From Sciurus carolinensis (taxonomy: Eukaryota; Chordata; Mammalia; Rodentia; Sciuridae), in the NCBI RefSeq assembly GCF_902686445.1, contig NC_062213.1, forward strand, positions 2,229,241-2,293,240: DNA of 64,000 nucleotides. Direction: 5' to 3'. The notes under the pieces are model-generated. The model did no database searches. It was not told the DNA's origin and saw only the letters and a list, made by a program, of their open reading frames with translations. Both the position numbers and the translations under genes were made by a program. Below are positions 3,986-34,360 of the stretch, one piece after another; the first letter of the stretch is position 1, and every line of letters starts with the position of its first letter.

Positions 3986-4086
3986 TTTCTTTCTTTCTTT
4001 TTTTTTTTTTGCGCTGCTGGGGATTGAACCCAGGGCCTTGTGCCTGCGAGGCAAGCACTCTACCAACTGAGCTGTATCCCCAGCCC
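3986..4086 (-). mobile_element. ID-type tRNA-derived SINE (squirrel type)
   Basis: Read on the minus strand this is an ID SINE: it begins GGGCTGGGGATACAGCTC and contains A-box-like and B-box-like promoter segments (GGTAGAGTGC; GGGTTCAATCC). It ends in a poly(A) tail, seen on the + strand as a T-rich tract at about 3986-4010. Short similar flanks (GTGTATTT on the left, GTGTACTT on the right) look like a target-site duplication. Only modest decay is visible, so insertion is fairly young. The copy lies antisense in the probable JRK 3' UTR. Confidence 0.85.
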
Positions 4087-13576: not shown

Positions 13577-13762
13577 GCCAGCCTCAGGGTGCACACCTGG
13601 AATCCCAGTTACTTGGGAGGCCAAGGCAGGAAGATCACAAGTTCAAGGCCAGCCTGGACAACTGAGCAACACCCTGTCTCCAAAATAGAAAGGGCTGGGG
13701 GTGTAGCTCAGTGGCAGAGTTCTCTGGATCCAATCCCCTGAACCACACACACATACACACCA
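13577..13762 (+). mobile_element. B1-ID composite SINE
   Basis: The left half (13577-13690) is 7SL-derived B1-like: CCTGGAATCCCAGTTACTTG, then GGAGGCCAAGGCAGGAAGAT and a GTTCAAGGCCAGCCTGG box. The right half (13691-13745) is ID-like, with GGGGGTGTAGCTCAGTGGCA and a CAATCCCC box, followed by a CA-rich tail. Fused B1-ID dimers are known from squirrel-related rodents and help place the organism. Confidence 0.85.
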
Positions 13763-15229: not shown

Positions 15230-17400
15230 GCTCCGCCATACTCCAACCCCAGACACACTGAGCCCTGACCCTGGCCACACTGGGCCCGGATCCTGGCCCT
15301 GTTCCTGGTCATATGCAGGGCTTTAACACTGGTCACACCCTGAGCTCTGGTCTTGGTAACACACTGGGCCCTGGTCCTGGTCATACCCTGAGCCCTGGTC
15401 CTGGTTGCACCCTGAGCCCTGGTCCTGGTTGTACCCTGAGCTCTGGTCTTGGTAACACACTGAGCCCTGGTCCTGGTCACACTGGGCCCTGACCCTGGTC
15501 ACACTGGGCCCTGATTCTGGCCCTGTTCCTAGTCATATGCAGGGCTTTAACACTGGTCACACCCTGAGCCCTGGTCCAGGTCACACCCTGAACTCTGGTC
15601 TTGGTAACACACTGAGCCCTGGTCCTGGTCATACCCTGAGCCCTGGTCCTGGTCACACCCTGAGCCCTGGTCCTGGTTGTACCCTGAGCCCTGTTCTTGG
15701 TAACACACTGAGCCCTGGTCCTGGTCACACCCTGAGCTCTGGTCTTGGTAACACACTGAGCCCTGGTCCTGGTCATACCCTGAGCCCTGGTCCTGGTTGT
15801 ACCCTGAGCTCTGGTCTTGGTAACACACTGAACCCTGGTCCTGGTCACACTGAGCCCTGACCCTGGTCACACTGGGCCCTGATCCTGGCCCTGTTCCTAG
15901 TCATATGCAGGGCTTTAACACTGGTCACACCCTGAGCCCTGGTCCAGGTCACACCCTGAACTCTGGTCTTGGTAACACACTGAGCCCTGGTCCTGGTCAT
16001 ACCCTGAGCCCTGGTCCTGGTCACACCCTGAGCCCTGGTCCTGGTTGTACCCTGAGCCCTGTTCTTGGTAACACACTGAGCCCTTGTCCTGGTCACACCC
16101 TGAGCTCTGGTCTTGGTAACACACTGAGCCCTGGTCCTGGTCATACCCTGAGCCCTGGTCCTGGTTGTACCCTGAGCTCTGGTCTTGGTAACACACTGAG
16201 CCCTGGTCCCGGTCACACTGAGCCCTGACCCTGGTCACACTGGGCCCTGATCCTGGCCCTGTTCCTAGTCATATGCAGGGCTTTAACACTGGTCACACCC
16301 TGAGCCCTGGTCCAGGTCACACCCTGAACTCTGGTCTTGGTAACACACTGAGCCCTGGTCCTGGTCATACCCTGAGCCCTGGTCCTGGTCGCACCCTGAG
16401 CCCTGGTCCTGGTTGTACCCTGAGCCCTGTTCTTGGTAACACACTGAGCCCTTGTCCTGGTCACACCCTGAGCTCTGGTCTTGGTAACACACTGAGCCCT
16501 GGTCCTGGTCATACCATGAGCCCTGGTCCTGGTTGCACCCTGAACTCTGGTCTTGGTAACACACTGGGCCCTGGTCCTGGTCATACCCTGAGCCCTGGGC
16601 CAGGTCACACCCTGAGCCCTGGTCCTAGTCATATGCAGGGCTTTAACACTGGTCACACCTTGAGCCCTGGTCCTGGTCATACCCTGAGCCCTGGTCCTAG
16701 TCATATGCAGGGCTTTAACACTGGTCACACTCTGAGCTCTGGTCTTGGTAACACACTGAGCCCTGGTCTAGGTCATACCCTGAGCTCTGGTCTTGGTAAC
16801 ACACTGAGCCCTGGTCCTGGTCATACCCTGAGCCCTGGTCCAGGTCATACCCTGAGCCAGGTCCTAGTCATATGCAGGGTTTTAACACTGGTCATACCCT
16901 GAGCCAGGTCCTAGTCATATGCAGGGCTTTAACACTGGTCACACCCTGAGCCCTGGTCTTGGTAACACACTGAGCCCTGGTCCTGGTCATACCCTGAGCC
17001 CTGGTCCAGGTCATACCCTGAGCCAGGTCCTAGTCATATGCAGGGTTTTAACACTGGTCATACCCTGAGCCCTGGTCCTAGTCATATGCAGGGCTTTAAC
17101 ACTGGTCACACCCTGAGCCCTGGTCCAGGTCACACCCTGAGCCCTGGTCCAGGTCACACCCTGAGCTCTGGTCTTGGCAACACACTGAGCCCTGGTCCTG
17201 GTCACACCCTGAGCCCTGGTCCAGGTCACACCCTGAGCCCTGGTCTTGGCAACACACTTAGCACTGGTCCTGGTCACACCGTGAGCCCTGGTCCTGGTCA
17301 CATGCAGGGCTTTAACACTGGTCACACCCTGAGCCCAGGTCCTGTCACAGGCCAAGCCCTGACCTGTTCACGGCAGTGTGTGCCGTGACCCCTGTCCTCT
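15230..17400. repeat. 24-bp minisatellite with 368-bp higher-order period
   Basis: About 2.1 kb of tandem 24-bp units close to ACCCTGAGCCCTGGTCCTGG plus TCAC/TCAT, alternating with a variant CTCTGGTCTTGGTAACACAC. A marker segment (CATATGCAGGGCTTTAACAC) recurs near 15310, 15534, 15902, 16270, 16628, 16703, 16870, 16915, 17035, 17083 and 17308. The interval 15534 / 15902 / 16270 is exactly 368 bases, and those copies are almost identical, so blocks of about 15 units were duplicated as a whole. A 24-base unit is eight codons, so no stop is introduced in several frames. That creates long artificial frames on both strands, which I do not call as genes. The right end decays over 17340-17400. Confidence 0.95.
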
Positions 17401-21129: not shown

Positions 21130-21955
21130 TGATGGTGATGATGGTTATGGTGATGCACAGATGCTGACAAGGAATGACAGCACAGGAATGACAGCAACGG
21201 AGATGATGGTGATAACAGTGATCATCGCAGCAGCGTTGGAGGTGATGAAGGTGATGGCGATCGCGAGGACTAGGATGGCAGTGATGGTGAAGATGGCAGT
21301 GGTGAGCACTGTGATGGTGGTGGTCATGGTCATGGTCATGGTCATGGTGGTGTTGAGGGTGGTGGTCATGGTAATAGTGATGGTGGTGGTGTTGATGACG
21401 ATGATGGTGATGGTGATGGTGATGGTGACAGTGACAACTGTGGTGGTAACAGTGATGGTGATGGGGATGTTGATGTTGGTGGTGATGATGGTGATGGCGA
21501 TGGTAATGGTGGTGATGGTGATGATGGTGATGGTGATATTGATGACTTTGATGGTGATGGTGGTGTTGGTGATGGTGATGGTGATGGTGATGGTGATATT
21601 GATGACTTTGATGGTGATGGTGGTGATGGTGATGATGGTGATGGTGGTGTTGGTGATGATGGTGATGGTGATATTGATGACTTTGATGGTGATGTTGGTG
21701 TTGGTAATGGTGGTGATGGTGATGATGGTGATGTTGGTGTTGGTAATGGTGGTGATGGTGATGATGGTGATGTTGGTGTTGGTGATGATGGTGATGGTGG
21801 TGTTGGTGATGATGGTGATGTTGGTGTTGGTGATGATGGTGATGGTGATATTGATGACTTTGATGGTGATGTTGGTGTTGGTGATGATGGTGATGGTGGT
21901 GTTGGTGATGGTGGTGTTGATGATAGTGATAATGATGGAGAAGATGACAGTAACA
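21130..21955. repeat. GATGGT-type trinucleotide/hexanucleotide satellite
   Basis: About 820 bases built from GAT and GGT triplets. A non-repetitive module, GATATTGATGACTTTG, recurs at 21535, 21595, 21670 and 21847, which shows segmental expansion of longer blocks. The period of three keeps frames open on both strands, giving artificial Met/Val-rich and Ser/Pro-rich frames. Confidence 0.95.
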
Positions 21956-25924: not shown

Positions 25925-26331
25925 TCCACTCCTGGCACCTGGTGGACGCTCAGGAGGCTACAGCTGTCCCCACTGTGGGCCCCACATCAGGTTCAGTGCA
26001 GGGTCAGGATCCCTCGGCCTGTGGGAGGCTGCTTGGGGACAGGCAGGGCTGACCTGCTGCTGGGCAGGAATGGACAGCCCGCTCCTCCTGTGCTGCGGAG
26101 AGCTTCCTGGGCCGGACGCTCTGGGTGCTGGTACGCAGGTGGGGGTGCAGGGAGCAGGGGCTTGCTGCTGTTAGCCACGCAGCAGGGGCAGTGCTGCCGC
26201 GGCTTCTGGCCTCTCAGCCTGCGACTCTGGCATCCACTGCTGGTGGGCCCGGGGCAGGAAGGGGTCTCTGGGCAGCCCTGGCAGCTGCTGGCAGGTGGCG
26301 CAGAGCCTGCCTGCGTGGGGAAGCTCCTTGC

Positions 26332-26419
26332 TGCGTCATGGCCCGCTATTCTCAGCCTCTCTCCTTTTATGGCTCCGGAAGTGAGCAGGGATGCTGGGCT
26401 GGCTGGGAGCTATTTAAAC
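26332..26419 (+). promoter_or_regulatory. ARC: Probable ARC distal enhancer (SARE): CRE, MEF2-like, CArG/ETS cluster
   Basis: Within 90 bases lie TGCGTCA (CRE-like, 26332-26338), CTATTCTCAG (MEF2-like, 26346-26355), a perfect CArG box CCTTTTATGG (26363-26372, SRF), CCGGAAGT (ETS/ELK, 26375-26382, 2 bases after the CArG box) and CTATTTAAA (26410-26418). The ARC synaptic activity-responsive element is an approximately 100-bp enhancer with CREB, MEF2 and SRF sites about 7 kb upstream of the start of transcription. This cluster is about 6.6 kb upstream of the predicted ARC start, with the same site order I recall. It would mediate rapid transcription after synaptic activity. Sites and distance are seen; identity as SARE is inferred. 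Confidence 0.8.
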
Positions 26420-29400: not shown

Positions 29401-31900
29401 TGAGCAAGAGACAGGAAGTTACATGCCCCAACCCCTGTGCATCCCCACACCACGATGGCAGGACCATTGCCATCACCTGGCATAGACAGACCACCCATTT
29501 TCTTTGGCCTCCTGCTTGATGAGGACCAGGCTGGGGGGCCACCACCCAGGCCGAAGGGGGCAAAAGGGTCCCTGGAGCATGAGGCAAGTGATCAGCATGT
29601 TCCTGTTTGTACAGATGCAAGTGTGAGCACATGCAAGTGCACGCACACGTCGGCCTGCCTGGGCACCTGCGAATGCAGACCTGTGGTGTGCACACGGGTG
29701 CAGATGCCCTGAAGAGGCTGTCCTCGCACTCTCGGCTGCTCCACGGCAGGGTCAACAGGATGAGCAGGCTGGACTTGGGTGGTGGCATCCCTCGGAAACA
29801 CCTGGCAGTCTGCGGCATGTGGGTCCGGTGGGCTGGCCAGGTTGTGTTCAGGCTATAGCCTGCCAGGAGACCCCTTCCTTGGAGCCTGGCAGGGATGGCA
29901 GGGCACCCCTGTAAGGGAACCTGGAGGGGCTTGAGGAGCATGTCCTCTGGGGAATAGGGGGCAGATGCAGGGATCAGGCAGCCCCTTTGGGGGCCCAGGC
30001 TGTGGGGATCCCTGGAGGCAGGTGTGAGCCCTATCAGAAAGCATGTCACAAAGCAGACTCAGGAAGGAAGGGAGGCTCCAGGGGCAGGGGGCAGGACAGG
30101 GTGTTAGAAAGACCAGACACTGGGGGTGGGCTCCCTGAGATGCATCTGGCAGGGAGATTCCATCACAAGCTTAGAACCTGGGGCTGGGAGCCTGGAGCCT
30201 GGGAGCAGATGGGGAGAATGGCTTGAATGAGGGGTGCCTACATCCTAGTGCTGTGTAGACCCCTGTGGTCACCTCCACCTGTCCCCTCCCCTGAAGGACC
30301 TCCTTCTGCTCAGGCAGGTTAAGCCTGAAGAAACAGCCCAGGCTGGCTCTGGGAGTGGTCCCCCAGTCCTCTCCCAGGCCCACAGGGGCTGGGGGTCAGC
30401 GTTGGTGCCCAGCCCCTCCTGGCGGGGCTGCTGAGGAGTGCAGGCCTGTGACAGGCAGCCCATCGGGCTGCTGCCGGCCTCCTCTCCAGAGGCGGAGGAA
30501 CAGAGCCCCAGGTTCCAGTGCGGGGTTTTGCTGAAGGCTTCTGGGGCGATAATTGGGCAGCGATTAAGTGTTCCCAGAGCAGCTGCTGTTGCCTGTCACC
30601 TGTCACCTGTCACTGCAGGACCAGTGTTCAGAGCTTCTGCAGACCCTGTGAGGGGGCGGGGATGCCTGTCCTTGTGCTGTGCTGACCAGAATGTGCTTTC
30701 CACCCACAGGGGCTGCATGGGGCCAACTGTCCAGCTCTTCAGTGGTCAGGGAGGGGAGTGAGTGTCACGCATCTGAACACACGGCATCCTCCCTGGGCCA
30801 CCTTGGGAACTGCCATCCCTGTCCAGGCCTGGGCACCCAGGGGCTGGCCTTCCAGACCCAGCACCATAGGGCTCTGTGCCTGCAGCCATGCCAGTCCTTG
30901 CTCACTCTCCCTAGACTCCCACTCTGGGAAACCTGTCCTTGGCTGCGACCTAAGGTCGAGGTAGAAAGGGGAGCTGGAGGCCCCTGTGGGCCAGAGGCCC
31001 GAGAGTCATCCTGGCCCAGCTGGTGAGGCTGCCCCAGGGCCAAGTGGTCAGGCATTTGAACATGGAGGGCCAGCCCTGGTCACTGAAGCGCTGGCTCCCA
31101 CACTCAGGGACACAGGACCAGTGCATGTCCAGCTGCTTCATCAGCCCATCCCGCCGGCACAGTCCTTTGGTCCTCTTGGTGACTGCTGCCCAGACCTTTC
31201 AGAGTCAGGCACAGATCCTGCAGCCTCCGACTCTGGGAATCCTCATTGCAAAGACTCAGGCTGGTCCCTGTTCTCGCAGCTTCTCTGCCTGGCTCTCCCT
31301 CCCAGCTTGGAGGTGCCCCTCCGCCCTCCCTTCTCTGTCCGCCCACTTGCCTTTAATTAGAAATGCCAGGAGAGCCATTTTTGGGGAGTTTTTTTTTTTT
31401 TTTTTGCCAGAAAGACATTCCCCTCAGAGGCGGAAGCCCAGGGGGGAAAGGAGGAGACAGGCCGCTGTGAGGCGGGCAGAGAGAGTGGGGTGGGGGCAGG
31501 GGGTGCGGGCAGGGCATGGGGATTGCAGCCAGTGTGTGAGCAAGACAGCGTGGGACATGAGTGTACAGAGGGTGCTGAGTGGGGGGCATGAGTGAGTATG
31601 TGGGGGGCTGAGTGGGGGGCATGAGTGAGTACGTGGGGGGCTGAGCGGGGGGCATGAGTGTGCAGTGCCTGAGTCTGAGAGAGGCAGAGGCAGGAGCCGT
31701 GGGGAATAAGGCGTCCTGGCTGTCACTGTGCATCTGTGGCTCTCTGAGGGGGTATTAGTGTGTCACCTGCTTCCAGGTAACATCAGAAGATGTGAGACCC
31801 AGACCCACCCATCCAGCATTGGAGTAATCCAGAAAGGATGTCCCTCCCTCCCCCAACACACTGCGGTTGCCAGGGAAGCGGAAGGGGCCTCCCTCCTGAG
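26430..31900. other. Intergenic sequence upstream of ARC
   Basis: GC-rich DNA with no supported exon. It contains a 33-bp tandem repeat at 31574-31660 and a 17-19 base T tract at about 31390. Positions 30593-30612 hold three copies of CCTGTCA. Frames such as 26125-27060 (+) or 29285-30049 (-) have biased composition and no domain. Confidence 0.5.
31574..31660. repeat. 33-bp tandem repeat, 2.7 copies
   Basis: Units start at 31574, 31607 and 31640, with the form GCTGAGTGGGGGGCATGAGT plus GAGTATGTGGGGG. The period is 33 bases (11 codons), so the minus strand reads as a repeated Pro/Thr-rich frame without meaning. It lies 1.3-1.4 kb upstream of the ARC start. Confidence 0.9.
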
Positions 31901-31910
31901 GGAATCGCAG

Positions 31911-31936
31911 CTTCCGGAGCCCCGTTCCTTATATGG
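31911..31936 (+). promoter_or_regulatory. ARC: ARC proximal serum response element (CArG + ETS)
   Basis: A perfect CArG box CCTTATATGG at 31927-31936 is preceded 9 bases upstream by CTTCCGG (an ETS site on the opposite strand, 31911-31917), with another GCGGAAG at 31879-31885. A CArG box with a nearby ETS site is the layout of a ternary-complex (SRF-ELK) element. Rodent Arc has a functional serum response element in the 1-1.5 kb promoter region. This one is about 1.0 kb upstream of the predicted start. Confidence 0.7.
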
Positions 31937-32639: not shown

Positions 32640-33560
32640 GTCCCTGCGCACCTCGTTGCCCAGCACTGCGAGGGCGCGGGGCTCGCTGGTCCCCAGCGCG
32701 GCCCCTCTGGGCCGTCAGGCTGAAGAAGCCAGAGTCCCGAGTGGGAGGTGCGCAGGGGAGCGGATTAGTCAGCCGAAGTGTGCAGGGGGCGGGTCCTCGC
32801 ACCGCCCGCCCGGGCGGGGCGCGTGGGCGCGGGGAGGCGGGGCCTGCGGCGGCGGGCGCGGGCGGGACGCTGGCGGGAGCCTGCGGCTGGGCCAATGGGA
32901 GCCGGGCTCGGCAGGGGCCGCCCACGGGCCGCGGGCAGCATAAAGAGCCCGCGGCGGCAGCTAGGCGCAGAGCTCGGGCGCCGCGTCCTCGCTCAGCCTC
33001 TGCCGCAAGGTACCTGCCGCGCCTGCCGCACCGCGGCTGCCGCACTCGGGCTCCCGCCGCTCCGCACGCTTCCCCGCGTTCCGCTGCCGCCGGCTCCCTG
33101 CGCTCTCACAGCGCCTGTCCCAGAATAAATAGTTCGCAGCCTGTCCGGAGCGCCGCCACCTGTGCGCAGATGGAGCTGGACCACATGACGAGCGGCGGCC
33201 TCCACGCCTACCCCGGGCCGCGGGGCGGGCCGGCGGCCAAGCCTAACGTGATCCTGCAGATCGGTAAGTGCCGTGCCGAGATGCTGGAGCACGTGCGGAG
33301 GACCCATCGGCACCTGCTGACCGAGGTGTCCAAGCAGGTGGAGCGCGAGCTGAAGGGGCTGCACAGGTCGGTGGGCAAGCTGGAGAACAACCTGGACGGC
33401 TACGTGCCCACGGGCGACTCGCAGCGCTGGAAGAAGTCCATCAAGGCCTGCCTGTGTCGCTGCCAAGAGACCATCGCCAACCTGGAGCGCTGGGTTAAGC
33501 GCGAGATGCATGTGTGGCGGGAGGTCTTCTATAGACTGGAGAAGTGGGCCGACCGCCTGG
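32640..33560. promoter_or_regulatory. ARC: CpG island over the ARC promoter and 5' coding region
   Basis: CpG density rises sharply here relative to the flanks (for example GCGGGGCGCGTGGGCGCGG at about 32815) and continues into the first third of the ARC coding sequence. This is expected for an activity-induced gene held ready for transcription. Confidence 0.8.
32892..32975 (+). promoter_or_regulatory. ARC: ARC core promoter
   Basis: A CCAAT box (32892-32896, GGGCCAATGGGA) is followed 47 bases later by a TATA-like CATAAA (32939-32944), and GC boxes precede both. Transcription is predicted to begin about 25-32 bases past the TATA-like element, near 32968-32975. The predicted 5' UTR is about 200 bases long and has no upstream ATG, so the first AUG is the ARC start. 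Confidence 0.65.
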
Positions 33561-34360
33561 AGTCCATGGGCGGCAAGTACCCAGTGGGCAATGAGCCAGC
33601 CCGCCACACGGTCTCCGTGGGCGTGGGGGGTCCTGAGAGCTACTGCCACGAGACTGATGCCTATGACTACACGGTCAGCCCCTATGCCATCACCCCGCCA
33701 CCAGCTGCTGGTGAGCTGCCGGGTCAGGAACCAGCTGAGGCCCAGCAGTACCAGCCCTGGGGCCCTGGAGAGGATGGGCAGCCAAGCCCTGGTGTAGACA
33801 CACAGATCTTTGAGGACCCTCGGGAGTTCCTGAGCCACCTGGAAGAGTACCTGCGGCAGGTGGGTGGCTCTGAAGAGTACTGGCTCTCCCAGATTCAGAA
33901 CCACATGAACGGGCCAGCCAAGAAGTGGTGGGAGTTCAAGCAGGGCTCCGTGAAGAACTGGGTGGAGTTCAAGAAGGAATTCCTGCAGTACAGCGAGGGC
34001 ACACTGTCCCGGGAGGCCATCCAGCGGGAGCTGGACCTGCCACAGAAGCAGGGCGAGCCGCTGGATCAGTTCCTGTGGCGCAAGCGGGACCTGTACCAGA
34101 CACTGTACGTGGACGCCGAGGAGGAGGAGATCATCCAGTATGTGGTGGGCACCCTGCAGCCCAAGCTGAAGCGCTTTCTGCGCCACCCACTGCCCAAGAC
34201 CCTGGAGCAACTCATCCAGAGAGGCATGGAGGTGCAGGACGGCCTGGAGCAGGGAGTGGAGCCAGCCGGCCCCCAGGCGCCCACTGAGGACGAGGCAGAG
34301 GCCCTCACTCCCGCTCTCACCAGTGAGTCTGTGGCCAGTGACCGGACCCAGCCTGAATAG
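33170..34360 (+). CDS. ARC: Activity-regulated cytoskeleton-associated protein (ARC), 396 aa
   Basis: A complete frame of 396 residues, the length of human ARC. The N-terminal half holds a cysteine cluster CLCRC (94-98, palmitoylation region) and a basic coiled-coil domain (about 20-140) with the oligomerisation motif MHVWREV at 113-119. Residues 141-206 form the flexible linker. Residues about 207-370 form the capsid domain: N-lobe about 207-277 and C-lobe about 278-370. The C-terminus is acidic. ARC derives from a Ty3/Gypsy Gag and self-assembles into capsid-like particles that carry RNA. In neurons it acts at the postsynapse in AMPA-receptor endocytosis, synaptic scaling and long-term memory, and in the nucleus. 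The ATG at 33170 is chosen because the conserved N-terminus starts there; the frame is open further upstream but runs through the promoter. There is no intron in the coding region and no sign of decay. Confidence 0.98.
   Translation: MELDHMTSGGLHAYPGPRGGPAAKPNVILQIGKCRAEMLEHVRRTHRHLLTEVSKQVERELKGLHRSVGKLENNLDGYVPTGDSQRWKKSIKACLCRCQETIANLERWVKREMHVWREVFYRLEKWADRLESMGGKYPVGNEPARHTVSVGVGGPESYCHETDAYDYTVSPYAITPPPAAGELPGQEPAEAQQYQPWGPGEDGQPSPGVDTQIFEDPREFLSHLEEYLRQVGGSEEYWLSQIQNHMNGPAKKWWEFKQGSVKNWVEFKKEFLQYSEGTLSREAIQRELDLPQKQGEPLDQFLWRKRDLYQTLYVDAEEEEIIQYVVGTLQPKLKRFLRHPLPKTLEQLIQRGMEVQDGLEQGVEPAGPQAPTEDEAEALTPALTSESVASDRTQPE

Follow-up and report, generated by a model that had tools for sequence, protein, structure and literature searches.

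The Sciurus carolinensis orthologue of the ARC activity-response enhancer SARE retains its weak sites

Gene content of the ARC locus

The window analysed is the whole 64,000-nucleotide stretch of Sciurus carolinensis DNA (NC_062213.1, positions 2,229,241 to 2,293,240), and all coordinates refer to it. ARC is intact at 33170–34360: the predicted product matches PDB 7r24_A (activity-regulated cytoskeleton-associated protein) with 841 bits over residues 1–396, and its Pfam domains are Arc_MA, Arc_capsid_dom and Arc_C. The putative ARC start, near 32971, was set by eye about 30 bases past a TATA-like box. A match to the published mouse +98 word (33022–33033, two mismatches) would shift this start about 35 bases further 5'.

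32940..32945, forward strand: ATAAAG, a TATA-like element in the promoter of ARC, read in the sequence
33170..34360, forward strand: coding sequence of ARC (396 codons and a stop), which is presumed to be the target gene (PDB 7r24_A, Pfam)

The 5' part of the window holds a 549-codon open reading frame (1101–2750) with transposase-derived CENP-B_N and DDE_1 domains, which we take to be JRK, the neighbour of ARC in human. Between JRK and ARC runs a tandem array of about 2 kb with a 24-base period (15329–17349), within which a higher-order unit of 368 bases recurs 4.2 times at 92% matches (15330–16872). There is also an array of GTGATG-type hexamers, about 630 bases long (21311–21938), whose long open reading frames look like repeat artefacts, and a 33-base tandem repeat (2.8 copies, 31570–31660) that twice holds the starting word of the mouse −1302 reporter fragment. 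A tRNA-like SINE at about 4026–4080 and another ID-tail word near 13695 resemble the rodent ID family. None of the Alu, B1, MIR, carnivore, rabbit or ruminant repeat words tried is present in the window.

Four regulatory motifs within 51 bases

An initial annotation had proposed a compact activity-response enhancer, assembled from CRE-like, MEF2-like, CArG and ETS sites, at about 6.6 kb upstream of ARC. All four motifs are found where it placed them and in that order, spanning 51 bases (26332–26382); a fifth word, likewise weak, lies 27 bases past the ETS site.

26332..26338, forward strand: CRE-like half site TGCGTCA (candidate CREB input), identical in the mouse core SARE (cSARE)
26346..26355, forward strand: MEF2-like site CTATTCTCAG, two mismatches to YTAWWWWTAR, identical in mouse cSARE
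26363..26372, forward strand: CArG box CCTTTTATGG (candidate SRF input), identical in mouse cSARE
26375..26382, forward strand: ETS site CCGGAAGT (candidate TCF/Elk-type input), two bases past the CArG box, 7-base core as in mouse, last base different
26410..26419, forward strand: CTATTTAAAC, a second weak MEF2-like or TATA-like word, two mismatches to YTAWWWWTAR, beyond the aligned mouse core

The cluster combines a half-site variant of the CRE with a MEF2-like word that is weak by virtue of its two mismatches. Counting both strands of the 64 kb, CCTTTTATGG and CTATTTAAAC each occur once, while TGCGTCA, CTATTCTCAG and CCGGAAGT each occur twice. From TGCGTCA to the ARC ATG is 6838 bases, and to the putative start about 6.64 kb, in line with the annotated figure; the latter figure may be off by tens of bases because the +98 word would put the start further 5'. 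The measured distance agrees with the published values of about 7 kb (PMC13142304) and about 6.5 kb (PMC8486535).

Alignment to the mouse core SARE

Our mouse query was the 91-base cSARE insert of a cloning primer in PMC8489021, with the tails trimmed by us. Local alignment places 87 of its 91 bases on 26306–26389, the last four lying outside, and yields 87 columns with 78 identities, six mismatches and three gap columns. The score is 126; the runner-up location in the window reaches 32, and none of 60 shuffled queries exceeds 33.

26306..26389, forward strand: orthologue of the mouse core SARE, the ARC activity-response enhancer; local alignment, 78/87 columns identical
26304..26342, forward strand: longest block common to window and mouse; exact over 26310–26342 (33 bases), growing to 39 bases should a second mouse primer be genomic at its 5' end

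None of the nine differing columns falls within the 34 motif columns, when the ETS site is taken as its core of seven bases; base eight of the ETS word (26382) differs from mouse, and the full word is not wholly conserved. The probability that the differences spare the motifs by chance is 0.009 by column but about 0.08 when they are counted as five runs, so that motif-specific constraint is only suggested by the comparison. Motif spacings are 7/7/2 bases here versus 8/7/2 in mouse. Global alignment of all 91 mouse bases places a 4-base gap within the ETS word, making the alignment of this region ambiguous.

A second cSARE primer from PMC8489021 matches 26304–26323 over the whole of its 3' part (AGCCTGCCTGCGTGGGGAAG, 20/20). 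Given this exact match, the two bases 'CA' by which the mouse insert differs at its 5' end may be a cloning linker, in which case the differing columns number seven instead of nine. The three enhancer guides of a mouse study (PMC13142304, a preprint) can also be placed, two exactly (at 26319 and 26313) and the third at 26363 with three mismatches; they derive from the same mouse stretch as the query and are not independent support. The four mouse eRNA primers of that preprint have no convincing place in the window (best placements four to six mismatches, scattered). Its promoter guides ArcProm1 and ArcProm2 likewise have no convincing place, the best showing five mismatches and lying away from the promoter. 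As expected, a 22-base word of the element has no match in viral and prokaryote contig collections.

We are confident, at roughly 97%, that 26306–26389 is the orthologue of the SARE of ARC described by Kawashima et al. (2009). The mouse alignment that had been suggested as a check came out in favour of the proposed SARE identity, which is further supported by the matching weak-site peculiarities and by the position upstream of an intact ARC. The element itself is already known, and the novelty of the finding is essentially nil; mouse core SARE is reported to overlap largely with macaque and human sequences (PMC8489021).

Published features of the SARE

The mouse Arc/Arg3.1 SARE (Kawashima et al. 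2009, PNAS 106:316; cited in PMC8489021, PMC4005930, PMC3561385 and PMC13142304) is a known 100-base DNA switch that activates the memory gene ARC when neurons fire. A review from the discoverers' group lists its sites as CREB, MEF2 and SRF/TCF (PMC4005930), all of which have sequence counterparts inside the 51 bases. Two oddities have been published for the Arc element, a CREB site present only by half and two mismatches in its MEF2 site (PMC3561385), and the consensus search of that same paper missed it, the sites being weak. Both oddities recur here, in TGCGTCA and the MEF2-like word. The distance of about 6.64 kb to the putative start falls within the range of about 6.5–7 kb 5' of ARC, and homology to mouse is seen in the 78 identical columns of 87. 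For SRF/TCF, window and mouse share the arrangement of CCTTTTATGG, two bases, then CCGGAAG. The initial annotation had presented the ETS site as a little-stressed additional input; this was overstated, SRF/TCF being already named in PMC4005930 and CCGGAAG standing two bases past the mouse CArG box as well.

A conserved 5' flank

On its 5' side the longest conserved block reaches past the half CRE by up to 28 bases, which are free of the motifs named in the annotation. At 33 exact bases, the block barely exceeds the next block, 28 bases across the MEF2 and CArG sites. It contains GCGTGGGGA, a loose EGR-like word with two mismatches to the EGR consensus GCGTGGGCG. Allowing at most one mismatch, the consensus occurs at 20 places in the window, a number attained in 2 of 100 shuffles, where 12.6 were expected; 26304–26389 contains none of these places. 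Because GCGTGGGGA needs two mismatches, an EGR input is no more than a lead. A factor bound to the flank might reinforce the weak half site for CREB, or contribute a later phase driven by EGR. That the SARE has, in this mouse-conserved flank, a further input beyond its usual description seems to us rather unlikely. We note 26304–26331 as one small lead, to which the consulted passages of the papers cited here assign no factor.

The proximal serum response element

The published proximal SRE of Arc is conserved in the window together with the distal element.

31927..31936, forward strand: proximal CArG/SRE CCTTATATGG, identical to the mouse SRE word in PMC5458472, about 1.04 kb 5' of the putative ARC start

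The 20 bases around CCTTATATGG match mouse ChIP primer P2 of PMC5458472 at 17 of 20 positions, a fit that none of 100 window shuffles attains. An ETS-like CTTCCGG is present nearby at 31911–31917. A third CArG-type word, CCATTTTTGG, lies beside a T run at 31375–31384, about 1.6 kb 5' of ARC; it is perhaps low-complexity sequence and is without mouse-match support of the kind seen for CCTTATATGG. Other published Arc elements include a Zeste-like element at about −1.4 kb (PMC8486535).

Alternative explanations

Weak sites raise the question of a chance gathering of short motifs in GC-rich non-coding DNA, devoid of any regulatory role. In favour of this are the weakness of the MEF2-like site, the reduction of the CRE to a half site, and the abundance of MEF2-like words (up to two mismatches), which number 128 in the window, above the 44.5 of shuffled sequence. 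Defining a cluster as a CArG box with CRE-like and MEF2-like (up to two mismatches) sites inside 60 bases, we found one in the window (at 26363), against none in any of 300 dinucleotide-preserving shuffles. This control is rough, its motif definitions having been fixed post hoc with the site already in view, and the shuffles understate chance (0.89 CArG boxes versus 3 real, alongside the MEF2-like shortfall); arithmetic from the real counts (3 CArG, 6 CRE-like, 128 MEF2-like) gives about 0.007–0.008 expected clusters. What decides the matter is the 84-base alignment to the mouse enhancer, far above the 60 shuffled queries, which rules out a chance cluster in practice and leaves it a negligible probability. 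Conservation could also come from a different transcript whose upstream exon or promoter lies here, with CTATTTAAAC, for instance, serving as a TATA box 27 bases past the ETS site. Two open reading frames of at least 150 codons in the program-made list do cross the region, but they occupy different frames, and the one-base gap relative to mouse between the CRE and MEF2 sites would shift the frame; we rejected a coding explanation, as these two overlapping frames fail to account for the pattern. Transcription here would be explicable by the bidirectional eRNA reported for the mouse enhancer (PMC13142304), and we regard another transcript as highly improbable.

The remaining alternative accepts the SARE orthologue but makes it secondary, with the proximal SRE at 31927 giving the main activity response in this species. 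Beyond its conservation, mutation of the mouse SRE blocked the activity of a −1302/+98 reporter both at baseline and under BDNF induction (PMC5458472), and in mouse brain Arc protein fell more with promoter guides than with enhancer guides (PMC13142304). Against this, repression of the distal enhancer by dCas9-KRAB in mouse neurons blocks BDNF induction of Arc mRNA while leaving its baseline unchanged (PMC13142304), and the distal element by itself suffices for an activity response (PMC3561385, PMC4005930). A dominant proximal SRE is thus unlikely in our estimation, and we favour the distal SARE orthologue as the main activity enhancer in this species, a role extrapolated from the mouse work.

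Proposed mechanism and significance

Binding and activity of the element in S. carolinensis would presumably follow the mouse scheme. Synaptic activity would signal through calcium and ERK to three inputs: CREB on the half CRE, MEF2 on its weak site and, on the CArG–ETS pair, SRF partnered by a ternary complex factor of the ETS family. Their joint action, exceeding that of any single factor, would recruit RNA polymerase, yield eRNA and activate the promoter of ARC, which lies about 6.6 kb downstream. Combining CREB, MEF2 and SRF is reported to give a stronger response than each singly (PMC4005930), and dCas9-KRAB at the element in mouse neurons also reduces stimulus-induced eRNA (PMC13142304). 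Arc protein did not rise when dCas9-VP64 was targeted to the enhancer (PMC13142304), BDNF-induced Arc transcription was not reduced in a CREB Ser133Ala knock-in (PMC5458472), and one review considers the role of these Arc SREs not definitely confirmed (PMC8486535).

These data confirm, from raw sequence, that the ARC activity enhancer is closely kept in another mammal, including weak sites of a kind that a consensus search can miss. Practical value is modest: mouse tools may carry over, since two of the three mouse enhancer guides match exactly. No new question is opened beyond the conserved 5' flank.

Comparison with known elements

The proximal Arc SRE (PMC5458472), with its orthologue at 31927–31936, shares a CArG box with the distal element but stands apart from it, at about 1 kb from the start, and, under the definitions used here, is without a CRE-like and MEF2-like pair within 60 bases. 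Pintchovski et al. 2009, as cited in PMC5458472, described a distal Arc SRE at about −6.5 kb, a distance that PMC8486535 also gives; its CArG box stands at a distance matching that in the window. Judged by distance, the two are very probably the same element. The closest relative is the mouse SARE, which serves the same gene from the same side and distance and carries the same four motifs in the same order; the window differs in having one base fewer between the CRE and MEF2 sites, a CArG–ETS spacer of CT rather than TG, and T rather than C as the final ETS base. The CArG box with adjoining ETS site is also the arrangement of the c-fos serum response element, where it serves SRF and ternary complex factor, with the c-fos ETS site oriented the opposite way relative to its CArG box.
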